Positions 23,597-47,845 of a DNA stretch of 64,000 nt are shown one piece after another; positions within the stretch are counted from its first letter, which is position 1; every line of letters starts with the position of its first letter. The translations under genes and the position numbers were made by a program. The notes beneath the pieces were generated by a model. The model saw only the letters and a program-made list of their open reading frames with translations, was not told where the DNA came from and did not search any database. The DNA comes from a virus. The stretch lies in the IMG/VR virus record IMGVR_UViG_3300031239_000001, positions 1 through 64,000 of that record. The stretch is one strand, 5' to 3'.

Positions 23597-23836
23597 ATGA
23601 AGAAGCCCATGAAGAAGCCGCGCAAAATCACGACCTTTGAGGCAGAACTGATCGAAAAGGTGGAACAAGCCGAAGAGCGCCTCGTGGGCGCCTCCAAAAG
23701 GTTTTCTGACGCTGTCGCGTTTGGTGGGGACGTTGACCGTCTCCGGGCACGGCTCGACGTCGCCCTGGCCGAATTCGAGAAGCTGTCCAGTTGCCTCGAC
23801 GGTATCTTCCCCCTCGAACCGGGGGAGGTCCGCTAA
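23597..23836 (+). CDS. Small coiled-coil protein (79 aa)
   Basis: This encodes 79 residues with a basic N-terminus (MKKPMKKPRK) and a helical body with heptad-like spacing. AAGGAG lies at good distance from ATG 23597. It overlaps the convergent kinase gene end by 4 bp. No family is recognised. Confidence 0.65.
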   Translation: MKKPMKKPRKITTFEAELIEKVEQAEERLVGASKRFSDAVAFGGDVDRLRARLDVALAEFEKLSSCLDGIFPLEPGEVR

Positions 23837-25155
23837 ACCACCCAGAGCTGGTTGATTGCACTGTCGGCGGCCGTGAACCCCATAGCCGCCTTCAGTGCGT
23901 CCAGGCGCTTTACGCACGCGCGGGGGTCAATCCCGAACCTCGACAGCGACTTATACAGCGCCTCCGTATCGAGCCCCTTGACCCACGTGGACAGCTCGAC
24001 CTCAACCTGGTGGTTCACCCGGGGCATCGACTTAAGCTTCGCGTCAGGCGTGAAGTCCTTGAATTCAGCCGGGGCAAGAGCCCTGAGGTAGTACGGCGTA
24101 AACGAGCTTTTGTCGTGCGCCGGGTCGAAATTCTCGCCGGCAAAAGCCGAACCGTGGTCAATCAGCTTGACGTCGGCGCCCCGAAACATCGTGTTGCCGG
24201 CGTTGCTGTCAGCGTTCCCGAGGATGTAATCGACCGCCGCCCACTTATGAAGCGTGCCGTCATGGCGGTAAATCTGGAGGGCCTTCCTGGCAGCGTTCGG
24301 GTCCTGGGTTTTTAGCTTGTTGCCATCGACATAGTCGCCCGACAGCATTTTCTGGACCGCGTATTCGCGCCCGTCGATCATCAGCAGGTAGCACTCGGGG
24401 TAGTAGGCGCCAAGTCCCCAGGAGGCCACCACGTCGTAAAAAGCCGCTTCCCGGCGAGACTGGGTCGCCGAGGTGTCGCTCTCGCCGGCAGCCGGATTCT
24501 GGCGCCCCGACCCAGGCTTGAGCAGGTAGCGCCCGTGGTTTTCTTTGTCGTAAGCCACCAGGGTGCCCTTCGAGTGCTTCCCGCCGAGCTTGATGGGGGT
24601 TATCTCGTCCTCGGACGATGCCTGCGCTACGAGCTTGGCGAACTTGACGCCGCCCTCCGTCATTGCGGCCACGTCCTTGAATTTGACGGGCTCGGGGTCT
24701 TCCGACTTCTTCAGCCCAGAGAGCCGGAGGTAGTCTGCAAGGCCCTGGCGGGTTTCATCGCTGGGCTCCAGGCCGCAGGCCATGAGCGCAGCGTCCACCG
24801 GGTCGTCGTCGCAGTGGACCCTGGCGGCCCGGACCTCATCGGGTGAGGGGGTAACCCCCGAAAGGAACGAAGCGGCCCGCAGGCAGTCAGCCAGGTTGGT
24901 TTCCTGGCCATGTAGCGCGTCCTCTAGGTTGCGCGGTGGAGTCACCTCGATGTCGCCAGAGGGCTCGTTCTCGACCCAAGCGGAATAAGCCTGGGCCTGG
25001 TCGAGGCCAGGCACCAGGACACTCACAGGCGCGTGCTGGCCGTACTTCCTTGTCAGCCAATGGTAAGCATGCAGGAGCTGTTCACGGACCTCGTCCTCGT
25101 CACCCTCGTAAGCGTGGGTGCAGTCCTGATAGTGCTGCTGGACGATGACTCGCAT
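23833..25155 (-). CDS. PI3/4K-like kinase-domain protein
   Basis: This encodes 440 residues. Residues 1-150 form an N-terminal region beginning with a module similar to the neighbouring 66-aa protein. Residues 185-345 look like a PI3/4-kinase or HipA-type kinase: GRYLLKPG at 208-215 (ATP-binding Lys), DYILGNADSNAGNTMF at 309-324 (catalytic Asp and metal Asn), and IDHGSAF at 332-338 (metal Asp in DHG). It may phosphorylate a host protein or lipid. ATG 25155 overlaps the previous stop (TAATG). Two more such domains lie in the adjacent giant protein. Confidence 0.8.
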   Translation of the reverse strand: MRVIVQQHYQDCTHAYEGDEDEVREQLLHAYHWLTRKYGQHAPVSVLVPGLDQAQAYSAWVENEPSGDIEVTPPRNLEDALHGQETNLADCLRAASFLSGVTPSPDEVRAARVHCDDDPVDAALMACGLEPSDETRQGLADYLRLSGLKKSEDPEPVKFKDVAAMTEGGVKFAKLVAQASSEDEITPIKLGGKHSKGTLVAYDKENHGRYLLKPGSGRQNPAAGESDTSATQSRREAAFYDVVASWGLGAYYPECYLLMIDGREYAVQKMLSGDYVDGNKLKTQDPNAARKALQIYRHDGTLHKWAAVDYILGNADSNAGNTMFRGADVKLIDHGSAFAGENFDPAHDKSSFTPYYLRALAPAEFKDFTPDAKLKSMPRVNHQVEVELSTWVKGLDTEALYKSLSRFGIDPRACVKRLDALKAAMGFTAADSAINQLWVV

Positions 25156-25355
25156 TACTCGACCTCGACCGCCAGGTCCTGTGCGGTATGGATGCGTCGC
25201 AGCACGTCTTGGATGGAGGTGGGGTTGTGGCCGGCATTGCGCGGGTGTGTCATCGCCCAAGGAAACTCCAAAAGAAGCTGGGCGACGATCTGCTCGGGCT
25301 CCCCCCGGAAGGTTTCGACTTCCTGAGACCAAATATTTGTAATCTTGACCGTCAT
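25155..25355 (-). CDS. Small protein related to the kinase N-terminus (66 aa)
   Basis: This encodes 66 residues. The segment FRGEPEQIVAQLLLEFPW aligns in pattern with YEGDEDEVREQLLHAYHW at the N-terminus of the next gene, suggesting a duplicated module. It overlaps both neighbours by TAATG junctions. It may be an adaptor or inhibitor of the kinases; that is inference. Confidence 0.65.
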   Translation of the reverse strand: MTVKITNIWSQEVETFRGEPEQIVAQLLLEFPWAMTHPRNAGHNPTSIQDVLRRIHTAQDLAVEVE

Positions 25356-32917: not shown

Positions 32918-34309
32918 TTACAGCTGTCCGCGCAAGTTGTCGATCAGCACGTTCTTGCGGGGCTCCACAACCGCCAAAGTCAAGAACCGCAGATGCGCCT
33001 CGGGGATGCTGAGGTCCGAGACCGCCAGCTTCACTCGGCTGTAAGGGGCAAGCTCCTTCAGCTCCATGGTGTCGCCCTGGATGAGATAGCCCGTCACGAA
33101 GCCCGGGAGCTTATTCCCGAGGTCGAGGAAGGTGGTGTTACCCGACACCGCCGAGATAACCCGACCAACGAACTTGGCCGAGGAGGCCGCGCCGCCAGCG
33201 TTCGTGCGGTACACATTGTACCCGCGAACCGTACCAGAACCCGGAGGGGTGATGGTCAGGGTGATCTTGTCGTTCAGGTTGACCGAGGCCGACGCGATAG
33301 AGGCCGAAGCCGGGGACTCGCCGTTCTCGTTGAACGAGGTGACGTAGAAGGTGTAGACGCCAGCCGCGAGAGCCCCACCGGCGCTGTTGGCAATGCCGAG
33401 GGTAGGAGCGGTAGGAGAGTTGGCGCGGGTGCGAGCCGGCTTGCTCTTACCACGAAGGAACTGGCTGGCCTCGATGTTGACGGTACCACCAGAAACCCAC
33501 TGCTTGCGGAGGTCGCCACCGGTCGAGTCCTGAGGGGACCCCGCGAGAATTACTCGCTCCTTGCCGATAACCAGCTTGTTGTAAGCCGAGAGGACAATCG
33601 GGTCAACCAGAAGGCGGTTGGCAGTGCCGAAGTTGAGAGCGCTACGAACCGCCGCGTCCTCAACCTTGCCCTGGTCCAGGGTGCCGCCGCCCGAGAGAAC
33701 CACAGAGTCGTCCGAGCCGAACTCTGAGAACATAAGGTCTCGGCTGTTGACCTGCATGTCGCTCTGACGAACCTGGAGACCGAGCCCGTGAATGTTCGGG
33801 AGGGCCGGGACGGCGAAGGGATTGCCGTCGAACACGCCCGCGTTCGAGAAGTCGTCGATACCACGGAAGCTGTCGAACTCGATGTCGCCAGCGATCTTCT
33901 TGGCAGCGTCAGCAGCGGCGCGCTCGTCGCTCTTCTTGCCGTCAACAGTCGCCACCATCGTCGAAGCGATGGTCACCCGACGAACGTGGGAGTAGAATGC
34001 CATTGGCACCGTAACCCGCACGAAGTCCGAGGTCTCTTCCTGTCCGACCTGGCCTTCGAGCTGGGCAGACCCGCCGAAGATACCGTAGCTGAGCTGACGG
34101 TCGAACTGGTAGAGGGTGGCCTTGCAGGACGAGGTCCCCACGATCTTCTGGAGCTTGATGTGGCTCTCATCGAAAGTGACGTTGTTCATGACCGGGCTGC
34201 AGTCCTCGATTTGAAGGGCAGCACCCTGGGTCAGCGTACTGGGGGCTGCGTCATAGTTGCCAGCCTCCAACGCCTTCTTAAGTTCAGTAACGGCATCCAT
34301 TGCGTTCAT
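32918..34309 (-). CDS. Major capsid protein (HK97-type) with inserted Fn3/Ig-like domain
   Basis: This 463-residue protein is placed as expected after the protease and scaffold-like genes. Residues 1-290 and 395-463 would form the HK97-like body. About residues 295-390 (APTLGIANSAGG, GVYTFYVTSFNENGESPAS, GYNVYRTN) form a fibronectin-III/Ig-like insertion rich in Ser/Thr/Gly, probably displayed on the capsid surface. The strong ribosome site is CAGGAGA; starts at 34309 and 34300 (MNAM) are both possible. The capsid call rests on position, length and sequence character rather than on a signature motif. Confidence 0.78.
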   Translation of the reverse strand: MNAMDAVTELKKALEAGNYDAAPSTLTQGAALQIEDCSPVMNNVTFDESHIKLQKIVGTSSCKATLYQFDRQLSYGIFGGSAQLEGQVGQEETSDFVRVTVPMAFYSHVRRVTIASTMVATVDGKKSDERAAADAAKKIAGDIEFDSFRGIDDFSNAGVFDGNPFAVPALPNIHGLGLQVRQSDMQVNSRDLMFSEFGSDDSVVLSGGGTLDQGKVEDAAVRSALNFGTANRLLVDPIVLSAYNKLVIGKERVILAGSPQDSTGGDLRKQWVSGGTVNIEASQFLRGKSKPARTRANSPTAPTLGIANSAGGALAAGVYTFYVTSFNENGESPASASIASASVNLNDKITLTITPPGSGTVRGYNVYRTNAGGAASSAKFVGRVISAVSGNTTFLDLGNKLPGFVTGYLIQGDTMELKELAPYSRVKLAVSDLSIPEAHLRFLTLAVVEPRKNVLIDNLRGQL

Positions 34310-34351: not shown

Positions 34352-35308
34352 TTAGGCGAGGAACTTGGCGATATCGTCAATTCCTGCGGACCCAACAACA
34401 AACTTGTTGATGAGGTCTCGGTCAGATTTGGCAAGCTTCGAAGAGGAGGTTGCCTTGTTGAGCTTCTCAATCACTTGCGACTTCGTAAGCGACCGGGGAT
34501 CAACAGGGGCCTTCTCGGCCGGCTTATCGGTGGTACCAGGCTTGCTGATGTAGGAAATCCCAGCGACAGACTTCCGCATGACCTGGCGCTTGGTCACCAT
34601 ATCGGTGATTGCCTTGATGGTCTCGGCCATGGCCACTTCCTGCTTGGCAAGCTGGTCGTCCTTCTCTTTGATCGACTTGCGCAGCTTGCTGATTTCAGAC
34701 ATCTGAGACTTGGCCATTCCGCCGTTCCCGTCATTGGGAGTCCCAGTGCTGATTTCGCCCTTGCCGATTCCCGGCGGAGGACCGCCAGCTCCCGGCGGAG
34801 GACCGCCGGCCGAAGCCTCGGGGCCCGGGGGAGGGCCGGCCGATGCGTCAGGGCCCGGAGGGCCTGCAGAGGCCTCAGGACCGCCCGCCTCGGGGCCGCC
34901 ACCCTGCGATTCCATCGCCATGAGGGCGGCGTGGGCTGCCATCAGGTGCATCTTCAGCTCTTCAGGCGGGAGCTTCATGTACTCGGCCTGGAGTGCTTCC
35001 GGAGTGGCGCCGGCATCTGTCGCCGGGTCCTGGCCGCCGTCTGGACCGCCGTCCATCGGGGGCGCTGAGCCCTCGGCAGAAGCGTCGGCAGAAGCGTCGG
35101 GAGCGCCAGAATCCTCGGGACCGGCGCTCGACTGCTCGCCCGGAGGTCCGTCAGTCGCGCTTCCGTCCGGAGTGGTCTCGGCAGTGGTCTCTTCGCCAGG
35201 GTCGGCCTTGGAAAGGGTCACTTCCTCCGTATCGGACTTGAGCATGACGGCGACATCGTTAGTCACCTGCTCAAGCAACTTGTTGATTTGAGATTTCGAG
35301 AGCTTCAT
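34352..35308 (-). CDS. Scaffold-like head protein with Pro/Gly/Ala-rich centre
   Basis: This encodes 318 residues. Residues 1-35 are helical. Residues 35-185 are acidic and extremely Gly/Pro/Ala/Ser-rich with GPEASAGPP-type repeats. Residues 195-245 form a charged coiled coil, and a basic C-terminal domain ends in DDIAKFLA. A disordered middle, a coiled coil and a place directly before the capsid gene fit a scaffolding or capsid-assembly protein. AAGGAAGGA precedes ATG. The role is inferred. Confidence 0.65.
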   Translation of the reverse strand: MKLSKSQINKLLEQVTNDVAVMLKSDTEEVTLSKADPGEETTAETTPDGSATDGPPGEQSSAGPEDSGAPDASADASAEGSAPPMDGGPDGGQDPATDAGATPEALQAEYMKLPPEELKMHLMAAHAALMAMESQGGGPEAGGPEASAGPPGPDASAGPPPGPEASAGGPPPGAGGPPPGIGKGEISTGTPNDGNGGMAKSQMSEISKLRKSIKEKDDQLAKQEVAMAETIKAITDMVTKRQVMRKSVAGISYISKPGTTDKPAEKAPVDPRSLTKSQVIEKLNKATSSSKLAKSDRDLINKFVVGSAGIDDIAKFLA

Positions 35309-35341: not shown

Positions 35342-35812
35342 TTAGGTGGTCGAGAGGGTGTTCCAGATCGGAGCCCAGGTCGACTTCAGGTTACCTGCGA
35401 TCATTGCGGTCGTCGAAGGCACGGTACCGTTGGCAGTCTGGTAGGTATTGATATAAGCGCCAGTGCGGCCCGCGTCGGCATAGAGCAGAGCGAGGTCGCC
35501 GAGGACATCGATATCTGCGCCAGCGCCCGAGGAGATATTCGACTCGGTGCAGACGTTGATGATGGTCGGGCAGTAGACCTGCGCGGCGTTGCCGAAGATG
35601 TCGGTGCTCACCGGCGCACTGGCCGGCGTGGTCTTCACAACAATGACCTTCTTACCGGCGGCCGGCGAAGAGTCAGAGCTGAGAACGGTGTAAGGATTCA
35701 AGTCGGTGTCGACGAAATCGTTCGAGACCGGATAGTTGGTCGCCAGACGCAGCTTGAGGTTTTCAACCAGCTGCCGGTGAAGCGTCGCAACCTTGTAGTT
35801 CGTAGTGGCCAT
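35342..35812 (-). CDS. Head decoration/structural protein candidate
   Basis: This 156-residue, predicted beta-rich, Ser/Thr/Ala-rich protein lies just before the scaffold-like gene. Capsid decoration or a minor head protein is plausible. AAGGAGA lies at good distance before ATG. It is first in the capsid transcript, with a long leader holding a hairpin and a late-type motif. Confidence 0.6.
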   Translation of the reverse strand: MATTNYKVATLHRQLVENLKLRLATNYPVSNDFVDTDLNPYTVLSSDSSPAAGKKVIVVKTTPASAPVSTDIFGNAAQVYCPTIINVCTESNISSGAGADIDVLGDLALLYADAGRTGAYINTYQTANGTVPSTTAMIAGNLKSTWAPIWNTLSTT

Positions 35813-35919: not shown

Positions 35920-36264
35920 ATGTTTGAAGACAAGACGTATGAGCCGGTCACCTTTGAAACCCAACTGGAGTGCGCAGGTTGCCGCCTGCTCAAACACCAC
36001 ACTTTGTTCCATCAATACAGGCGGGAACGACAAAGAGTTTTTGCTAGTCGATGCAAGGCTTGCCGAAGGGAAGACCGCATGACCAAGGTCTACCCGGAGG
36101 TCTGTGCCTGTTGCCTTCTCCATCGCCGCCTGGATAACAACCAACAGTGCAGAACCTGCAACTCTGAAGCTGGCCTGCGCGAATGCCGGGCCTGCAACAG
36201 GTTACTGCCCCTGTGGGCGTCGTTCTATGGCCGGAGCCGTAGGTGTAAGGAGTGTCGAAAATGA
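35920..36264 (+). CDS. Cys-rich zinc-knuckle protein
   Basis: This 114-residue protein has about five CxxC pairs: CAGC, CKAC, CACC, CRTC/CRAC and CKEC. The spacing resembles the zinc knuckles at the N-terminus of phage HNH endonucleases, but no HNH core follows. Its stop overlaps the start of the LAGLIDADG gene (ATGA). It may be a DNA-binding partner of that enzyme or a decayed endonuclease. It has the only consensus TATAAT -10 box in the window. Confidence 0.75.
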   Translation: MFEDKTYEPVTFETQLECAGCRLLKHHTLFHQYRRERQRVFASRCKACRREDRMTKVYPEVCACCLLHRRLDNNQQCRTCNSEAGLRECRACNRLLPLWASFYGRSRRCKECRK

Positions 36265-37127
36265 GCGGCCGGCCTCCAGCGCTCGATCCGAAACATCTGG
36301 GCACCGTAATGGAGCTTTACGGCTCCGGGCTGGGAACTACCAAAATTGGAAAGCAACTAGGGGTAAGCTCCAGGGCGGTTCGCTACTTGATGAAACAGAG
36401 CGGCATCCCCCTCAGGAGGGATGATTTCGCCAAACTAGTTATCAATGACGGCTTCTTCGACGAAATTGACACGCCAGAGAAGGCATATTGGCTGGGCATA
36501 TTGATTACCGATGGGAATGTGTCTGGGACCCGAATAACGCTGAACCTGAAAGATCGGGAGCATCTGGTAAAGTTCGCTGAAGCTCTAGGAGGCGGCCAGA
36601 CACTATCTATCAAAGCAAAACACAAACAAATGGAAGGTCGGGATGTGGTTTGCTTCAACCTCCAGTTTAGAAGCAAACACATGGCCGGAGCGCTGTCAAA
36701 ATACGGGGTCGTCCCTCGCAAAAGTGCAACATCATACCCATGGAACGGTCCGGCTGAATTGATGCCACACTTTTGGAGAGGGTGTGTGGACGGCGATGGG
36801 TGGATTACTGAGATAAAGCCAGGTAGGTTTGCTATTGGTCTGTGTGGAACAAAAGCGATGACACAAGCGTTCTCAGACTTTTCTTATTCTGTCACTGGGG
36901 TTGCTCACAAAATCAAAGCACAGGGCAACATTTTTGTTTGCAGCGTCGGCAGCATAGAGGTGGTCCGAAAGTTGGCAATTTGCCTGTATGGAAACCTAGA
37001 TAAGGCTAGTAGCCTTGACAGAAAGCTGGATAAAGCTATTTTGGCGATGGGGGCTTTGGTCCAGCAACCCCCGCCTGGGCGCCCGAAGAAGGCAAAGCCC
37101 CAGCTGGTGGGGCCCCAGAATCAATAG
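36261..37127 (+). CDS. LAGLIDADG-type homing endonuclease with N-terminal HTH
   Basis: This 288-residue protein has a helix-turn-helix (TTKIGKQLGVSSRAVRYL) at about 22-42 and two LAGLIDADG-like segments: YWLGILITDGNV and HFWRGCVDGDGWI. Both hold the acidic residue needed for cleavage. Such enzymes are mobile. It overlaps the convergent protease/GGDEF gene by 92 bp at the 3' ends. The Pro/Lys-rich C-terminus lies in that overlap and probably is not part of the catalytic fold. No intron or intein boundaries are visible. Confidence 0.85.
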   Translation: MSGRPPALDPKHLGTVMELYGSGLGTTKIGKQLGVSSRAVRYLMKQSGIPLRRDDFAKLVINDGFFDEIDTPEKAYWLGILITDGNVSGTRITLNLKDREHLVKFAEALGGGQTLSIKAKHKQMEGRDVVCFNLQFRSKHMAGALSKYGVVPRKSATSYPWNGPAELMPHFWRGCVDGDGWITEIKPGRFAIGLCGTKAMTQAFSDFSYSVTGVAHKIKAQGNIFVCSVGSIEVVRKLAICLYGNLDKASSLDRKLDKAILAMGALVQQPPPGRPKKAKPQLVGPQNQ

Positions 37128-40100
37128 GCATAGGTCCTTCATGTCCTGGTACCAAACTGTGGACAAAATTCGGAGTTTTTTGAGGCGAGTACATTGCTTT
37201 CCGTTTTGTCCCCAAAACCTTGTTGAACAGGCTCGGTGCTGCAAACTTTTGCTCCTTTGCCATACCCAAAGCTTTGTCTGCTGTTTCGAAGTTGTGGCCG
37301 AGACCAAACGACATTGACAGCTTGTGCTGGCCATTGACCGGAGGAAGGGCTTCCAACCCGGCCTTTGCGTGTCGGATAAATTGCGCTGCGTGCTCGTGCG
37401 TAGGTGCCCAGAACGACATTTCGTCTCCTCCGCTGCGCCATGCCTTCCCCGTCCCCACCTTAGCCGCTGCATCACGAAACGCTCCGCCCATAGCCTTGAT
37501 AGCACTGTCGCCAGCATCGTGACCGTGGATGTCGTTCACCTGCTTGAAGCTGTTCCCGTCAGCGGACACCCAAACACCAGGCCGGTTCTCCTCGCGAAAT
37601 TCCGACGCAGCCCTCTTGTTACCGATGCCCGGTATCATCGGGTCGCCGTAAAATCCATGAACCAGGGCTCTGGTAATCGGGTGGTCGTGCCCATGAATCT
37701 GACGTGCCTGAGCGATAGCCGTACGGTGATCGGGCACCGTAGGCTCGGGGGGCAGGTGTAGGGTCTCCTCGTCCTTCCTCATTTCGGAAGACATTTTCTT
37801 GTATCGCACAGTACCAATTCCGGTCTTGGCATTGTGTAAGATTAGCTGAAGTTCGCCCTCGGTCAAGGCGTGGCCGTCCATCGCTGCTCCATGCGGCCCA
37901 AACTCAATCGTGTGTGGCTTGACCATGCCCGGTCGGTGGAACTCGAACACCGAATTAGGCTTCGGCATCGGCATTTTCATGACCGTCAGCTCTGGAACCG
38001 GATTGGGCTTCGCGACCTCGGTGGAGGGGGTCGTTTCGGTGACCGAGAAATTGGGACTCCACTTGAGGCCATGAAGCCCAGCGATAGCCGAAGCGTCCAT
38101 CTTGCCCTCGGGAACCATTGCATGCAGAAGGCCGTGGTAGTCTTCCAGGTGGTGGACGACATCACGACTGACCGAGAACCGGCCCGCCGGGTGAATTTTG
38201 TCGCCATGCTTGATGCCTACCGAATAGATAGTCGGCATATCAATTTTGGGCTCAATGGCGTCCGCAATATCTTTCCTCAGGTCGATGAGAGCTGCTTCCA
38301 TCTCCCTGGCCTTGGCCAAGAACTCCATGTTCTGGCCATTCCTCTCTCGATGCTCGGCAGCTTCGAGGAGCTTGGGGACCAAGTGGTGATAATACAAGAA
38401 CTGAGCGGGGATCTCTCCGTACTTTTCCACATAGCTTTGGTGAACCAATGCCGTGCGCAAAGACGTTCCGGAATCGGGCTCGTCACTCTTCTGGACCGGA
38501 TCAATCCAAGGCTTGATAGAGTCCCAAAATGGTTCATGGTGGGTCCCCGACTGCTTGCCCTTGTTGGTCATACCCACAAACTGCTCGTGCGGACGAATCG
38601 TAATCCAGTGTCGCCAGAAAGCAGGGAACAAGGCGTCCTTGGGGTCCTCGAACGTTGAACCCCACTTTGGGTGATTAAGAGTGTATTTTACGGCCGGGTG
38701 GTTCTTGGCGTACCAGTCGTTATACGGCCTCATTATGGTATCGATGTTGTTGGGGTTCCACAGCATGTTCTTCAGGTAAGTGAGGGTCCGCTTATCTTTC
38801 ATTACGTGCAGACCGAACATGTTGCGGATAAAGTGAGTATCAGGTACAACCGAGTCGCCACCACCCAACATCCCATAGGTGTAAAGACCAGTTTTGACCG
38901 CAAGACCCGGGACAGCGGTAAACGGAGACTCCCCTGGGTCAGGTTTACCCAGCAGTTTAGCTCGCTCACGCTTGGCCTCCCACAGTTGACCCTTGTGTTT
39001 GTTTCCCATTAGCTCGGAAACGGCGTCGAGGGCGTGATGACGGTGTCGGGATACCAGGTCGACGAGACCGTGATGCAAAGAATGATAACGAGATAAGTTT
39101 TTGAATGACCCTTCCATCAGGGGAGTCGTGCCGGGCAGCTCGCCAGCATACCGACCAGCGGCCGTTGGGTCGCCTGGGAACTCTCCCCATTCATCGTGGC
39201 GAATACCGATACGGTTGCCCACATAATAGGCCGGGTTTGTAGCGAACGCTTCTTTACCGGTCTCGGGCAGCGTATTCGGAGAGTCCAATTCTCTGAATTT
39301 TGGCTCAATCGCCGAGAAGCCCGGATTTCTCGGATCAAGACCGGTGGCGTGCATGGCGTCCACAAGTCTAGCGTACTGTAGCTCCTGCACCGGGACCGGC
39401 CGATTCGGAGACAGCTGGGCAAACATCACGGCATGCATGATGACCTCTGGCGGTAACTTACCGGCCTTGATCAACTTATGAACCTTGCTCCAGTTGGTCA
39501 TAGCAGTGTCCATGGCCTTTTCGACTTCTGGAGACTTCAACAATTTCTCATAATTCGCAGCCGATTCTGGGCCATCATCAGAGGGGAGATAGGCTTTGAA
39601 ACTTCCCATGGGGGTCCGCAAAACGCCTTTTTTGGGATCAAAAGAGGGGTGTTTGACAGATGGATTGGGGCGTATTTTGGTTCCTCGGAAGGTGGCAGCC
39701 GTAAATTTTGGGGCCTTAGCTTCTTCCTGTTCACTGTCGTCGAAATCCTCAAGGATCGGCTTGTCGGGTTTCGGGGCCTCCGGGGGCGTCGCAGGCGCGT
39801 CGCCCTCTCGCTTAGCCAGAGACTTCTTTACGGTGTACGCCTCCGCGATGTCGGCAAAGTGATTGAGAAAATCGTCCGACACTTCCGGGAGCTTCGCCTT
39901 GGCAAACCCCATGAACTCGCTCCGCGTAAATTTTCGATTACCGAAATCTCGCAAAACAGCCTTGCAGGTATTCCTGATTCGGTCGTCTACGTGTTCCTTC
40001 TGGAGAGCGGCGCCTCCAGTGAGAGAAGATGGAGCCCCTCCACCCATGCCGGCCTCTATCGCCTTGCGCACAGTCGAAAGAACCATCGCAGACCGAAGCA

Positions 40101-40749
40101 AATTGAGAGAAGCCTCGGCCTTGGAATCAATGATTTCGACCTCGGTCTCGTACCCTGATAGTTGGGCGTACTCGGGGTCGATTATGGACGTGTTTTCAGA
40201 CTTCTTGAAGCCTTCGGGGGCGTTGGGGTCGGATAGCAGAATGGTGTCGCAAGCTTTGAGACAGGGTTTGATAGTAATCGCGACTCTGCGGAAGATGCAT
40301 TGCTTGATAGTGTTACCCTCTTTCTTGAGGGTAGAGCCTTCGATGCTAAACCGACACAGGATCTTCTCGTCATTGGCCACAGCGTCTCGAATTTGGGCGG
40401 CAACGGCCATGGCCTCGGCGTGTCCCGCTCCGTCATACAGACGGACTACCCCAAAAAGGTAGGGCACTCTGACCTGGTCCCAGAATTTCTCTTGCTCTGT
40501 GGTCTCGCAATCTCCCTTCTTGAAGATTTTTTTAACATAGATGACACGGCCAATGGTTTCCTTACCAAAGCCAGTTTCGGCGTCAACGTGTTCCCAGTTA
40601 ACGGTAGCTGTCCCCTCTTCTGCACTAGAAATATCAATACCGTCTAGCTCGACAGTCTCACCGCTGCTATCAATAAGTTCAGCACTGAAGATGCCTCCCA
40701 GCAACATCCCAGTTTTGGATTCTTTCGGCTGGTCTCTTGGATTGCTCAT
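37036..40749 (-). CDS. Prohead protease polyprotein with C-terminal GGDEF domain
   Basis: This encodes 1237 residues. Residues 10-175 look like a phage prohead protease: WEH with catalytic His near 54, and CRFSIEGS with Ser near 135. Residues 425-650 include PGLAVKTG (614-621) and VVPDTHFIR (634-642), resembling the Lys and Asp motifs of HhH-GPD DNA glycosylases. Residues 1047-1172 are a canonical GGDEF domain: ADGNSFKQVNDIHGHDAGD, then GGDEM at 1107-1111. The GGDEF signature is intact, so diguanylate cyclase activity is possible. ATG 40749 is preferred; TTG at 40758 is upstream. The protein may be self-cleaved, releasing the enzyme parts into the capsid. Confidence 0.83.
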   Translation of the reverse strand: MSNPRDQPKESKTGMLLGGIFSAELIDSSGETVELDGIDISSAEEGTATVNWEHVDAETGFGKETIGRVIYVKKIFKKGDCETTEQEKFWDQVRVPYLFGVVRLYDGAGHAEAMAVAAQIRDAVANDEKILCRFSIEGSTLKKEGNTIKQCIFRRVAITIKPCLKACDTILLSDPNAPEGFKKSENTSIIDPEYAQLSGYETEVEIIDSKAEASLNLLRSAMVLSTVRKAIEAGMGGGAPSSLTGGAALQKEHVDDRIRNTCKAVLRDFGNRKFTRSEFMGFAKAKLPEVSDDFLNHFADIAEAYTVKKSLAKREGDAPATPPEAPKPDKPILEDFDDSEQEEAKAPKFTAATFRGTKIRPNPSVKHPSFDPKKGVLRTPMGSFKAYLPSDDGPESAANYEKLLKSPEVEKAMDTAMTNWSKVHKLIKAGKLPPEVIMHAVMFAQLSPNRPVPVQELQYARLVDAMHATGLDPRNPGFSAIEPKFRELDSPNTLPETGKEAFATNPAYYVGNRIGIRHDEWGEFPGDPTAAGRYAGELPGTTPLMEGSFKNLSRYHSLHHGLVDLVSRHRHHALDAVSELMGNKHKGQLWEAKRERAKLLGKPDPGESPFTAVPGLAVKTGLYTYGMLGGGDSVVPDTHFIRNMFGLHVMKDKRTLTYLKNMLWNPNNIDTIMRPYNDWYAKNHPAVKYTLNHPKWGSTFEDPKDALFPAFWRHWITIRPHEQFVGMTNKGKQSGTHHEPFWDSIKPWIDPVQKSDEPDSGTSLRTALVHQSYVEKYGEIPAQFLYYHHLVPKLLEAAEHRERNGQNMEFLAKAREMEAALIDLRKDIADAIEPKIDMPTIYSVGIKHGDKIHPAGRFSVSRDVVHHLEDYHGLLHAMVPEGKMDASAIAGLHGLKWSPNFSVTETTPSTEVAKPNPVPELTVMKMPMPKPNSVFEFHRPGMVKPHTIEFGPHGAAMDGHALTEGELQLILHNAKTGIGTVRYKKMSSEMRKDEETLHLPPEPTVPDHRTAIAQARQIHGHDHPITRALVHGFYGDPMIPGIGNKRAASEFREENRPGVWVSADGNSFKQVNDIHGHDAGDSAIKAMGGAFRDAAAKVGTGKAWRSGGDEMSFWAPTHEHAAQFIRHAKAGLEALPPVNGQHKLSMSFGLGHNFETADKALGMAKEQKFAAPSLFNKVLGTKRKAMYSPQKTPNFVHSLVPGHEGPMPIDSGAPPAGALPSSGAQAGVAGPKPPSPK

Positions 40750-40776: not shown

Positions 40777-40980
40777 TTAATTCGTCTCGAAACGGACAGC
40801 CGAAACGACGCGCTGGATCTGGACGTCTTCGACATCACAAGGAGCCAGGTCGTTCTTCCCGATGACATCCGCCCATTCGTCAAGCTCTTCTGGAGGCGGC
40901 GGTCTGAAGTCGTCGGCCACTTGGATCTCGTAAACGGAAGTGGCCATCTCCTGGACTACTACACGGTAGGTCTTACTCAA
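40777..40980 (-). CDS. Small protein of unknown function (67 aa)
   Basis: This encodes 67 residues, acidic with a Pro-rich turn (RPPPPEE). Start is taken as TTG 40980, which has GGGGGAG at good spacing and overlaps the MuF stop. ATG at codon 12 is an alternative. No family is recognised. Confidence 0.55.
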   Translation of the reverse strand: MSKTYRVVVQEMATSVYEIQVADDFRPPPPEELDEWADVIGKNDLAPCDVEDVQIQRVVSAVRFETN

Positions 40981-41752
40981 CGTCTCCCCCTTCTCTTTGT
41001 TGTTTGTATTCGTCGTGGTCCTTGGACTTGAAAGTGACGAAACCGTTGCTATTAAAACCAAATCCGGGCATGAGGATGGTCATGCTGCACCTACAATTTG
41101 GGTGCAGGACGGTACAGGGATGATCGTCGCCCCGCTTCCAGTAGCCTGAGCCCACCTCGGACAGTTTCCACACCCTGGGGGTAGTCTGGTCCGGCAAAAG
41201 GAACAAGCTCGTGCAGTCTTCGCACCGAGACTTGTCCCTGACCGTCACCCAAAACACTGTCGGGTCTTGCTGGCTGGTAGCCGCAGCGATTTTTGAGATT
41301 CCGTCAAGAGTGCCCATATTCCGAGCGCGGGTGGACTCTGTATCGACGATTCGGCGCACGTCCGACGTGACTTTACCCATGACCTCGCCAAGCTCGTCAC
41401 CCAGAACCTGGTGAAAATTGGCGCTTTCGCCTTTGGCCTCAGCATCATGAAGGGTGGCCTGGACCGTGTGTACGATTTTGGCCTTCGCCAGCTCACGGTG
41501 AGCGTCGAGGTATTGTTCGGCGACGGATTTCAGGCTGTCCCGAAGCTTCTCCGAGGGAGTAAACCCTTCGCTCCTGGTGGCGTTGTCAAACAGCCCTGGG
41601 AGGCTCAGGGTGTCGTTGTGAAGCTTGACACCCACACGGATAGTCTTGTCCTTGCCTGGACCCAGGAAACGCTGTTTAGCCCTCTGGAATAGGCCGTCGA
41701 TCGCCGCGTGAATGGCGTTGATGGCCTTCTTCGTGAGGATGAACCGAGGCAC
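40973..41752 (-). CDS. MuF-type head morphogenesis protein
   Basis: This 259-residue protein has a helical N-terminal half and a C-terminal phage Mu F-like region: TVRDKSRCEDC, then HPCTVLHPNCRCSM with paired Cys and His. MuF proteins are minor head proteins acting with the portal in early capsid assembly. Position between portal and protease genes fits. Length is typical. Confidence 0.82.
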   Translation of the reverse strand: MPRFILTKKAINAIHAAIDGLFQRAKQRFLGPGKDKTIRVGVKLHNDTLSLPGLFDNATRSEGFTPSEKLRDSLKSVAEQYLDAHRELAKAKIVHTVQATLHDAEAKGESANFHQVLGDELGEVMGKVTSDVRRIVDTESTRARNMGTLDGISKIAAATSQQDPTVFWVTVRDKSRCEDCTSLFLLPDQTTPRVWKLSEVGSGYWKRGDDHPCTVLHPNCRCSMTILMPGFGFNSNGFVTFKSKDHDEYKQQREGGDVE

Positions 41753-42660: not shown

Positions 42661-44784
42661 TTATTTCTTCTTGAAGTGCGCGGCCACGTCGAGAATCTCT
42701 TTTACGGCCGCCTTCGAGTCTTCCTCCCACCCGTCCATAAAGTGCTCGACAGTCTTGTTGTGTTGTGCTAAGAGCCGCCGCTTGTCCGGCGGGAGCTGCA
42801 TCTCGTGCTTGCTCAGGGCGTCAAAGGCGATATCGATCGAGCGAGCCAGGTCCGAGGCTCCTGAACCAGTCGCCCCTTGCCCCGAGGCGTCTGGGCTGGC
42901 CGCCGACTGCTGTTTCTGGGTGGGCTCTGGAGTGTTCTGGCCGCCGGCTGAAGGTCCCTGTGACGGGTCTCCCCCGCCTCCTGGCTGCCCTCCTGGGGCC
43001 CCTCCACCGCCGCCCCCATCCTGTGGGGGCCCGCCACCCTGGGCCTGCTGCTGCTGGGCCATCTGGGCCTGTTGCTGCGCTTGCTGTTGCTGGACCCACT
43101 GGAACCAGAATGGGTCTCTCACGTAGGCCAGATTGGGGTCCTTGCTGGCCCCCTCACGGCCGCAGAAGTGCTCCAGAATTTGGCCGACGGTGAAATACTG
43201 GTCGAGGTAGGTCTTGAACACCGGATTAAGCGGGATTGTGCCGCCCCATGCCTTGCCAACCGGCGGCTTCTCGACTCGCTCCGAGATGTCGTCATAGTTC
43301 ATCCAGATCGACATGTCCTGCTGGGTCCGGACGGCTTCTTTCTCGGCGTTGTCGGATTCGAGACCGACGAGCCTTACCGAGGCCTTCTTGGACAACTTAG
43401 GGTCGATGAGGGGGAACAGGTGCTGGTTGATGAAGTCTTCGAAATTCTTCAGCAGCGGCCGGATACCGACATCCCGGGCCGCCGTCATTTTGTACTCGTT
43501 GTTGCTCTCCGACAGGGCCTGATTGTTGGTGCCCTTAGACAGATATGACCATCCAGGTAGTTCGTCTGGAGACATCATGAATGCAGTTAGGATTTCCCGA
43601 GCATTCAAATCGCACAGGTACTGAAACTCCATATCCTTCCCCCCGCCCGTATCGATAGGCTTCCAATCAATACTTTCATCGACGCCACAACCAAACACTG
43701 GCATGCGCCACGAGTTATTGACGCTGTTGATGCTAGCGTTGAACTGTTGCTTGATATTGTGGATGACCTGTGGGTTAGCATCCTCGGACGAAATCACCAG
43801 CATGCCGCGAGCGGCGCGGCCTGATTGAAAGTAGAGCTTGTTGTGTTGGGTCAGATTAATGTGCGTGGTCACCGCACTGATGATCGTGTCGATAGGCGTG
43901 ACGGGATACCCGTCTAGCTCGACGTCTGGAACTGGGTAGCAGTTGTAGACCGACATCTCCTCGGCCGTGAACGCCTGCTTAGGAGTTCCTTCTACCACCT
44001 GTACATAGCAATAGTCGCCGGCCTCGTACTTCTCTTTCTCCAGCTTTTTGCCGGTGATTCTGCAAAGAAGGTGGTACGCGTCTTGGCGAACGGACTCTAG
44101 GCTATCCTGGTTGGAAGGAGCTGCGTCATAAATCGTTCCCGCATCGACGGCGACGAAGTGGTGGAACTTTTTCTTGCCCGGAGAGTCCGGGTCATCGATC
44201 CAGACTTTTTCACAGGCGATTCGTCCGACGACCAAAGCGTTTCGGGCCTGGAGGGCCAGGAACTCGGAGAAAGTAGTAACCATATCTAGGCCCGTCGTTT
44301 CGCCACACAGGTTGAGTTTCTTGACGGCCCGGTCGATCTGGACATTGAATTCCTTTTTCTCCTCGGGCGACATCTTGTCCAGCTCGCCTGTATTCGCCTT
44401 GATGACGAACCCCGTAGAGAAACGGTCTTCACGGGGGCGCCCGAACGAACTGAGGTGGTTCTGGCGAGCCCTTACAATGTTTGAAACCAACGAGTCCTGG
44501 ATTGCAATGCGCTTGAGCATTGCGTCCGGGATGAGTCGCATCTTGGCGCGGTAAACGCCACTGTAAGTATTATTGAGAGTCGGGTCGGTTTCGAACGATA
44601 GCCTTTCTACGCTATCATTACCCTGCCCGTTAAGGACGTTGAGGATCGATTTGGTGAGACTTGGCTTGTCCTCCCCTGTGCGAACGTACACCATTGACTT
44701 GGCCAGGTTCGCAGAAAGTTGCTCCTCGTTGAGCCCCAGTCCGTAAGTCAGGTTGGAGGTGGATTTTGGGGTTCGCCTTTTCAT
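42661..44784 (-). CDS. Portal protein
   Basis: This encodes 707 residues. The N-terminal 550 residues have the layout of HK97/lambda-type portals, including YLSKGTNNQALSESNNEYK before the crown-side helices and PDELPGW in the stem region. Residues about 575-645 are a Gln/Gly/Pro-rich low-complexity linker (QQQAQQQAQMAQQQQAQ), followed by a helical C-terminal tail. The portal forms the dodecameric DNA channel and binds terminase. It lies between terminase and MuF-type genes as expected. The long Q/G linker is unusual. Confidence 0.82.
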   Translation of the reverse strand: MKRRTPKSTSNLTYGLGLNEEQLSANLAKSMVYVRTGEDKPSLTKSILNVLNGQGNDSVERLSFETDPTLNNTYSGVYRAKMRLIPDAMLKRIAIQDSLVSNIVRARQNHLSSFGRPREDRFSTGFVIKANTGELDKMSPEEKKEFNVQIDRAVKKLNLCGETTGLDMVTTFSEFLALQARNALVVGRIACEKVWIDDPDSPGKKKFHHFVAVDAGTIYDAAPSNQDSLESVRQDAYHLLCRITGKKLEKEKYEAGDYCYVQVVEGTPKQAFTAEEMSVYNCYPVPDVELDGYPVTPIDTIISAVTTHINLTQHNKLYFQSGRAARGMLVISSEDANPQVIHNIKQQFNASINSVNNSWRMPVFGCGVDESIDWKPIDTGGGKDMEFQYLCDLNAREILTAFMMSPDELPGWSYLSKGTNNQALSESNNEYKMTAARDVGIRPLLKNFEDFINQHLFPLIDPKLSKKASVRLVGLESDNAEKEAVRTQQDMSIWMNYDDISERVEKPPVGKAWGGTIPLNPVFKTYLDQYFTVGQILEHFCGREGASKDPNLAYVRDPFWFQWVQQQQAQQQAQMAQQQQAQGGGPPQDGGGGGGAPGGQPGGGGDPSQGPSAGGQNTPEPTQKQQSAASPDASGQGATGSGASDLARSIDIAFDALSKHEMQLPPDKRRLLAQHNKTVEHFMDGWEEDSKAAVKEILDVAAHFKKK

Positions 44785-45787: not shown

Positions 45788-47845
45788 TTAGCCCAGGTCC
45801 CAGCTCAGCTTCCCGGTCTTCCCAGTCTTGCTGTTGGCCCCCTGTCCGGAGGACTTTTTCTTCTTTCCTGGCTTCTGGGACGAACTTTCTTCCTCGCCGT
45901 AATAGCTAAACACGGAACTGCCGTCCGGATTCTCAATACGCATTGGAGGCCTCCCGACCGTGGACACTTCCTCCTCCATGCCTCCTGTCTTGGAGGCGAC
46001 GTAATTCCGCATCCAGTCCGCGTGCGGTTTAGGAGTTGTTTCAGCTTGGGCTTTCTCGTTCGAGACCGCCAGACCGCCGTCCATGCTAAACACGTTCATC
46101 ACGATATACCGGACACAGTCCGCGCCGTCATCGTTATCCTCGGAAGGGATGTTGGTGGGTTTCCCGGCTGCGTCGTTTTTCCAGTGGTATTCGACGATGC
46201 TTCTGATGAAAGCTTCCATGTGTTGGTCGTCATCAATATCCAAAACGAAGAACAACTCGGGCTCGTCTGTGCCTGGGTTGAGTTTTTTCCTGACGATATT
46301 GATACCGCTTACCACAGAACCTGGCTTCTTGGACCAATTCTGTATCTTCCAGCCATTCTTGCGGAACATCTTGTTCATCTTCGGGTCAGCCGTGTCTGGG
46401 TAGATTTTTGCCTCCCAGTCTTTGTACGGCTCAGAGACCTCAAGCATCTGGTCGGGGTCAAGCCCCGGCATCATGATTGCGTTCGTGATGAACTGACGAG
46501 CGCCGTCCTTGAAACCCAGGCCGAAGGCGAAATTGTGGGTAGACCCCCAGTCGATTCCGCCATTCCACTCCACATCTCTCTGAGCCATGGCGGCCATAAA
46601 CATGGCCTTGGTGTAAAGCCTCGGCTCGATCCCTTCTGGCAGCTCTCCGAAAACCTTCTCGTAGGCCTCGGCGGGGGTAAGAACATGTTTTTTGCGGTCG
46701 AACCGATGATATATCAAACCGGTCGAGGCTGGCTTAAGACAGAGGAGCTGGGCGATACCCATCTCTATGCTGTTGACTTTGATAAGCTGGTCTTGGACGT
46801 GTTTGATAGGCTTGAGGAACTTTGATGTGTTCGTTTGTCTGGTAGCCAGATTCCCCTTGCATGCAGAGAACAGCTTGCAATTGGTCATACAGCCGGAATA
46901 GGCCATGTCCTCGGTGTATGACTCCTTCTGTTTGAAGGTGAACGAATTGTAGGTATCCTCGTCCACCGTACTACGCTCCTGTGTAGAGCGAAACACCTTC
47001 AATTTTGGCAAATCCGGGCGGTGGCGCTTGGGAGGACACGCCTCGGTCACGTCAAGGATGTTGAAGTGCTTTATCTTGAGCCCGGTCTTGTCGGCGTTGT
47101 TGATTTCGTCCTGAACGATGCCGAATGCCGTTTTCCTGGTGGAGGTCAGAATGGTTAGCGGGGGGACCTTGACACCATCCCTTCTGGTCAACGGCGTAGG
47201 AATATTCTTCGCTTCTTCGTAAGCCTTGATGTTGACGATGATGTCAATCTCATCAAGACACAGAAGGGGTGAGTGCTTCCCGTTTGTCGAGGTGATGGTT
47301 GCGACTACGATTTCTGCCTGGTTCTCTACCCTGAAGTAGCCAGAGTGCTCACGCTCAGGGAGCGAAAGGAATTCCTTTTCGGTCAACACCAGGCCCCCTG
47401 GGTTTACGGGCCGGTACAGGATTACACCCGTTTTCCTTTTGGAGTCTCCAGCAACAAACCCTCGGAGATGTTGCCTCGACAAAAACTTCTTCAAGTATTT
47501 TTGGGCGTTGGTGCTCTGCTCCTCGATGGCCGCGAGGTGGACCACAGAGATATCAAGATGGAACAAGGCCAGGACCTCTACCACGGACTGGGTGAGCGTT
47601 TTCCCGGCATCACGGGCAGAATAATACAACACACGCGGGGCCTCATCGCCGGTTGCGGTGTTGGGGTCATAGTGAGCGAAATGGGAATATGTCGCCCAAG
47701 CCATATCAAGCGGTGTCGTGTTGGAATCCGGGTCTACAATAGCGTCCGGAAGCTCAAGGTCCAGGTGGACGTAAATCCAGTCCTTGAGTTCCTCCCGCGT
47801 ATTGCAAATCGTGAATATCGACTCGCGCATCTCGGGGTCGAGCAT
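45788..47845 (-). CDS. terL: Terminase large subunit
   Basis: This 685-residue protein has a Walker A-like motif SARDAGKT at 76-83, Walker B LLCLDE at 194-199, and a coupling motif TILTSTR. The C-terminal RNaseH-like nuclease includes GIDWGSTHNFAFGLG. It powers DNA packaging and cuts concatemers. Extra residues between ATPase and nuclease include CMTNCKLFSACKG, a possible zinc-binding insertion. The length is at the large end for the family. It lies next to a small-subunit candidate and 24 bp from the following virion gene. Confidence 0.9.
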   Translation of the reverse strand: MLDPEMRESIFTICNTREELKDWIYVHLDLELPDAIVDPDSNTTPLDMAWATYSHFAHYDPNTATGDEAPRVLYYSARDAGKTLTQSVVEVLALFHLDISVVHLAAIEEQSTNAQKYLKKFLSRQHLRGFVAGDSKRKTGVILYRPVNPGGLVLTEKEFLSLPEREHSGYFRVENQAEIVVATITSTNGKHSPLLCLDEIDIIVNIKAYEEAKNIPTPLTRRDGVKVPPLTILTSTRKTAFGIVQDEINNADKTGLKIKHFNILDVTEACPPKRHRPDLPKLKVFRSTQERSTVDEDTYNSFTFKQKESYTEDMAYSGCMTNCKLFSACKGNLATRQTNTSKFLKPIKHVQDQLIKVNSIEMGIAQLLCLKPASTGLIYHRFDRKKHVLTPAEAYEKVFGELPEGIEPRLYTKAMFMAAMAQRDVEWNGGIDWGSTHNFAFGLGFKDGARQFITNAIMMPGLDPDQMLEVSEPYKDWEAKIYPDTADPKMNKMFRKNGWKIQNWSKKPGSVVSGINIVRKKLNPGTDEPELFFVLDIDDDQHMEAFIRSIVEYHWKNDAAGKPTNIPSEDNDDGADCVRYIVMNVFSMDGGLAVSNEKAQAETTPKPHADWMRNYVASKTGGMEEEVSTVGRPPMRIENPDGSSVFSYYGEEESSSQKPGKKKKSSGQGANSKTGKTGKLSWDLG

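Follow-up and report, generated by a model that had tools for sequence, protein, structure and literature searches.

The described system closest to the locus analyzed here is the head operon of Myxococcus phage Mx1 (OR576727.2), which has the same gene order and encodes a capsid protein 58% identical to its counterpart in our sequence. The Mx1 head protease is 36% identical overall to the protein described below and 41% identical over the common core. It differs in carrying a PI3/4-kinase-like tail, while the Mx1 GGDEF protein, annotated as 'nucleotide cyclase', is encoded by a separate gene two genes downstream. The Mx1 genome announcement does not discuss the cyclase gene, and we found no experimental work on the Mx1 protease or cyclase. 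Bacillus phage SPO1 has a protease (gp3.2) and a capsid protein (gp6.1) of the same families, the same order of portal, protease, scaffold and capsid genes, and a weak KxLEAG...ESL motif in both proteins; its protease, however, is only 256 aa long, with neither a cargo tail nor a GGDEF domain. The prohead proteases of SPN3US and phiKZ undergo C-terminal self-cleavage, A/SxE-type sites being used in these phages (AxE type in SPN3US), and cleaved N-terminal propeptides target inner and ejection proteins to the head in both (PMC5694885). In 2017, Iyer et al. described multi-domain phage 'polyvalent' proteins, for which packaging and injection are expected; GGDEF (in an Acetonema prophage protein), kinase and assemblin-like peptidase domains are among their components, and interference with nucleotide signals was proposed (PMC5512222).

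GGDEF proteins that stand alone have been annotated in phages, namely in Yuavirus, Vojvodinavirus, SP-15 and phage G, and what is known of c-di-GMP enzymes in phages comes mostly from accessory genes. Diguanylate cyclases convert two GTP molecules into c-di-GMP as dimers, and an RxxD I-site, the site of product inhibition, is common, though not universal, among them. The original prediction for the present locus held that a diguanylate-cyclase-type domain on a capsid maturation protein is not known to have been described. This stands for the N-terminal head protease joined to GGDEF, of which a search of the literature outside subscription papers found no published description; it does not stand for the components, since GGDEF, kinase and assemblin-like protease domains in polyvalent proteins (PMC5512222) and standalone phage GGDEF proteins were already known. 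What is new here is the use of an N-terminal head protease as the carrier and the conserved tie of GGDEF to the head operon.

The window, a stretch of 64,000 nucleotides, belongs to a virus record of 132,208 bp (IMGVR_UViG_3300031239_000001). Its head genes lie on the minus strand in the order large terminase subunit (45788-47845; phrog_6672), a 325-aa protein, portal protein (42661-44784; phrog_15361 and phrog_12), a MuF-like head morphogenesis protein (40973-41752; phrog_4728 and phrog_115), the fusion gene, a conserved 156-aa protein (35342-35812; relatives in 11 other loci), a probable scaffold protein of 318 aa (34352-35308) and the major capsid protein of 463 aa (32918-34309; phrog_752, E value 1.1e-45). 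The scaffold candidate occupies the position of SPO1 gp3.3 and has relatives in other loci, and the capsid protein is related to SPO1 gp6.1. The fusion gene is thus placed between the portal and capsid protein genes. A LAGLIDADG-like homing-endonuclease ORF with weak Pfam support (36252-37127, plus strand) also lies between the head genes; it is on the opposite strand and shares 92 bp with the fusion gene at the 3' end of the latter.

The fusion gene (37036-40749, minus strand) is a single uninterrupted frame encoding 1237 aa from an ATG, in agreement with the 1237-residue, GGDEF-terminated protein originally proposed. It consists of a head-maturation protease domain (aa ~14-180; 40210-40710), a conserved helical middle region (aa ~361-800; 38350-39669) recognized by profile match in relatives, and a GGDEF module with its domain at aa ~1028-1168 (37246-37668); a further segment inside the gene spans 37795-38229, all on the minus strand. 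Since the same fusion is present on 12 other independent contigs, a frameshift or misassembly as its source can be ruled out, and it is virtually certain that the protease is fused to an intact GGDEF fold. A Pfam scan of the fusion protein matched GGDEF alone and no other domain, and no second GGDEF match was found in the 132,208-bp record. As in polyvalent proteins, several unrelated domains are combined in one protein that is encoded with packaging genes. The assemblin-like protease of polyvalent proteins is always C-terminal (PMC5512222), whereas in the window protein the head protease itself forms the N terminus. Within the middle region, a conserved VPGLAVKTG...VPDTH stretch (aa 613-637; 38839-38911, minus strand) resembles an HhH-GPD signature (K619, D637). 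The idea of an HhH-GPD DNA glycosylase, drawn from VPGLAVKTG...VPDTHF, was rejected: PF00730 matched none of 16 records at E ≤ 10, and the Foldseek match to an AGOG glycosylase was very weak.

The prohead-protease-like character proposed for the N terminus is supported through the relatives. The protease half of the window protein alone had no Pfam or PHROG protease match; 17 of 23 aligned family members matched phrog_1028, 'head maturation protease' (best E value 4.4e-8), and His54 and Ser135, likely the catalytic pair judging from the alignment, were invariant in 23 of 23 sequences. The protease family profile found SPO1 gp3.2 at 2.9e-15, and tblastn with the protease of one relative led to SPO1-group proteases. 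There was no Pfam match of the protease half to Peptidase_S77 (T4 gp21). A low-confidence structure model of this half had the KSHV maturation protease as its best PDB match (probability 0.84, E value 0.32). The assignment as a head-maturation protease is secure at the family level and, for the window protein, very likely.

The GGDEF domain had originally been placed at 37234-37611, which corresponds to aa 1047-1172 and to the GGDEF core. PF00990 matched aa 1050-1154 at an E value of 5.5e-9 and with 36.4 bits, above the cut-off of 23.8 bits, which 11 of 12 relative records also passed. Structure prediction, proposed along with the domain, returned a cyclase fold: the GGDEF core of the AlphaFold model had pLDDT values of mostly about 90 or higher, and Foldseek matched it to solved diguanylate cyclases in the PDB (E value about 1e-7, probability 1.00), which a profile of the relatives' GGDEF domains also matched, at about 1e-11. 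All four motifs that had been quoted are present, namely ADG (D1064), FKQVND (1068-1073), GHDAGD (1076-1081) and GGDE (1107-1110). In PleD numbering, D327, K332, N335, D344, GGDE and K442 are retained, so that the metal-binding and catalytic residues (D327, GG[DE]E) and the GTP contacts (N335, D344, K332, K442) are all in place; in c-di-GMP synthases, N335, D344 and K332 contact the guanine and the phosphate. Position 329 is Asn in the window module and in 28 of 29 modules. The module thus shares its fold and catalytic residues with WspR, SadC and PleD. It differs from them in that no RxxD precedes GGDE by five residues, in that AKEQKF instead of AKxxGR stands at the position of Arg446, a phosphate contact, in that neither a sensor nor a dimerisation domain can be recognized in the window protein, and in being fused to a phage head protein. 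The label 'canonical' therefore fits the catalytic motifs and not the I-site, Arg446 or the domain context.

Relatives were collected by a search of viral contigs seeded from Mx1, which gave 48 distinct protease relatives, mostly on IMG/VR contigs (designated here by L numbers). A single-sequence search of viral contigs found no relatives; they were recovered with alignment queries, consisting of P0001 and Mx1 and later of 12 members. A search of genome contigs for hosts gave a single match, in a Saccharibacteria MAG, which we think is a mis-binned phage. In 13 of the 48, GGDEF was fused to the C terminus of the protease (the window, L010, L013, L032, L036, L040, L042, L048, L065, L066, L069, L070 and L073), and in at least 17 it was encoded separately, by the first or second gene downstream (16 aligned, including Mx1, plus L086); L050 had a weak match to a separate copy. 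The separate gene, usually encoding 376-435 aa, has the same N-terminal part plus GGDEF as aa 841-1237 of the window protein. As it corresponds to this entire module, two complete genes are joined in the fusion. In some genomes (Mx1, L008 and a few more) the N-terminal part and GGDEF are separated from each other as well. On the protease tree the fused and separate states required six parsimony changes, at least two of which were forced by well-supported branches. The two states interchange, as expected of two products working in one place, and the protease-GGDEF arrangement, being conserved among relatives, is biologically meaningful.

Other tails occur at the same place. A PI3/4-kinase-like domain replaces GGDEF at the protease C terminus in L002, L005, L006, L008, L011, L012, L014, L033, L034, L041, L058 and others, and a kinase is no less unusual in a head protease than a GGDEF domain. 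In the late region of the window, a 499-aa ORF (23833-25332, minus strand) was matched, at an E value of 3e-15, by a kinase profile derived from tails of the proteases, and the window phage may therefore have the kinase as a separate gene. Two protease genes have large insertions (L014, 9995-14605; L015, 9989-14275); that of L015 matched Pfam Intein_splicing (E value 3.9e-9), and that of L014 looked alike by eye.

The location of the gene in a late head operon would also suit an enzyme that acts late in the producing cell, raising cyclic dinucleotides before lysis, with the fusion a mere convenience of co-expression. Standalone phage diguanylate cyclases do exist outside head operons, and lysogens of a Bordetella siphovirus with such an enzyme have been linked to hyperbiofilm (PMC8471281). 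Repeated fusion to a protein of the prohead core, however, would take the enzyme out of the cytoplasm, and the link to the protease gene is conserved over deep divergence, which makes late action an improbable explanation.

We compared 29 GGDEF modules to see which active-site residues are kept. D327, N335, the GG pair, D370, K442 and the Arg before GGDEF were invariant in all 29, and E371 of GGDE was kept in 28, the exception being L015, whose GGDC module is probably dead. Among four related separate GGDEF genes, omega (dN/dS) was about 0.07-0.10; the module is under purifying selection. Other positions were less constant: K332, present in the window, was missing in about half of the modules, often with a joint change of D336, and D344 was Asn in six, all of them separate-gene versions; 13 of 13 fused modules, that of the window included, kept it. 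The variation at K332 and D344 suggests that substrate or activity may differ among modules. Together with the GGDC of L015 and the replacement of Arg446, it counts against an active cyclase; we nonetheless consider it somewhat probable that the GGDEF domain predicted here is enzymatically active. If it is, the product is probably c-di-GMP. A different product directed against nucleotide-signal immunity, for instance cGAMP or a nucleotide in linear or oligomeric form, would fit the modules in which base-recognition residue D344 is Asn or K332 and D336 are jointly altered, as well as the interference with nucleotide signals proposed for polyvalent GGDEF domains (PMC5512222). The window protein itself retains D344, N335 and K332, and for it we regard another product as doubtful at best. 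The decoy signal originally suggested is possible, and nothing favors it over plain synthesis.

The feature that links the protease to the shell is a motif of about 27 residues ending in ALQxE. It reads KAIEAG...APSSLTGGAALQKE followed by H and lies just past the protease domain (aa 228-254, KAIEAGMGGGAPSSLTGGAALQKEH; 39988-40068, minus strand), and a second copy lies near the N terminus of the capsid protein (aa 10-36, KALEAGNYDAAPSTLTQGAALQIED; 34202-34282, minus strand; E value 1e-15). The pair was present in nearly every genome showing both genes. The first 13 genomes examined all have the motif; in 12 of them a profile made only from protease copies found the capsid copy (E values of 1e-9 to 1e-15), the contig of L012 ending before the capsid gene. 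This profile found no other protein above noise in the DNA searched, and the pair recurred in most of the later relatives. SPO1 gp3.2 and gp6.1 have a weaker form (KSLEAG.../KALEAG...ESL...NLS). An [LIMV]QxE site occurs once in the window fusion protein. In L005, L006, L008, L011 and L012, a second [AS][LI]QxE stands near the end of the kinase-like tail (e.g., RRRLVALQHES), possibly a second cleavage site or a chance occurrence. From its two locations, the shared motif looks like a processing or core-docking site, with a predicted self-cleavage point between E252 and H253. As an alternative, it may be an uncut docking segment; cut or uncut, the tail would end up inside the prohead, and we consider this probable. 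The suggestion that protease cleavage frees the GGDEF domain inside the head gains support from the motif shared by protease tail and capsid protein.

The same motif bears on whether the module might be a component of assembly, its fold, possibly GTP-bound, serving in the internal core with protease and scaffold and being lost or digested at maturation. GGDEF is strictly tied to the head operon and the protease, and the ALQxE site also occurs in scaffold-like proteins, as EALQAE in the putative scaffold of the window (a single site) and of some relatives and as a close variant in another. Also in favor of this reading, the separate GGDEF proteins have no copy of the shared motif, K332 and D344 vary, and E371 has been lost once. 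A structural role, however, would not need D327 and GGDE, which even widely divergent phages retain with hardly an exception. Moreover, GGDEF was undetected in about a dozen relatives (L044, L046, L051, L052, L054-L058 and L060-L062, the more divergent or shorter ones), whose available DNA extends 2.8 kb or more downstream, and is therefore not needed for head assembly as such. We consider an assembly role unlikely, though less so than late action or another product.

The best explanation of the whole, to which we give a probability of roughly 45%, is that a self-cleaving head protease leaves a GGDEF cargo in the head, which is ejected and makes a cyclic dinucleotide. In this reading an Mx1-like phage makes the fusion protein as a polyvalent head protein, whose N-terminal ~250 residues are the prohead protease. 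It would be incorporated into the prohead core and cut itself off after E252, using the recognition motif that it has in common with the major capsid protein. This resembles the C-terminal self-cleavage of the phiKZ and SPN3US proteases at xxE sites, the window site being predicted from sequence; in those two phages, ejection proteins directed there by cleaved propeptides fill the head, and the protease tails are tens of residues long, in contrast to an enzyme-bearing segment of ~985 aa. Everything C-terminal of E252 (about 985 aa and about 107 kDa, comprising the helical region and the GGDEF module) would stay in the head as cargo and be ejected with the DNA at infection. There the GGDEF domain, which has no product-inhibition site, would make a cyclic dinucleotide, most likely c-di-GMP, and shift host signaling as infection begins. 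Elsewhere in the group, the GGDEF protein has a gene of its own beside the protease, and a kinase-like domain may take the protease tail. We see an even chance that the GGDEF tail is present in mature virions and delivered; against the cargo model, the separate GGDEF proteins are without the shared motif, so that the model offers no route into the head for them.

It is tempting to speculate, though we hold this tentatively, that the capsid-maturation protease is a loading vehicle whose C-terminal tail is a swappable slot for a GGDEF module, a kinase-like domain or the helical middle domain. The motif copied between capsid protein and protease might then couple maturation of the shell to release of the enzyme in the head, and injection would reset the cyclic-dinucleotide signaling of the host. 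The protease tail with the shared motif could also be a tag for loading proteins into phage heads, and phage Mx1 with Myxococcus xanthus DK1050 is a culturable pair for study. These data suggest that in Mx1-related large tailed phages the protease of the shell loads a signaling enzyme into the particle, perhaps for delivery to the next host. If this is true, the retention of a GGDEF enzyme with an intact active site beside the head protease of divergent phages would speak for second-messenger signaling carried by virions.
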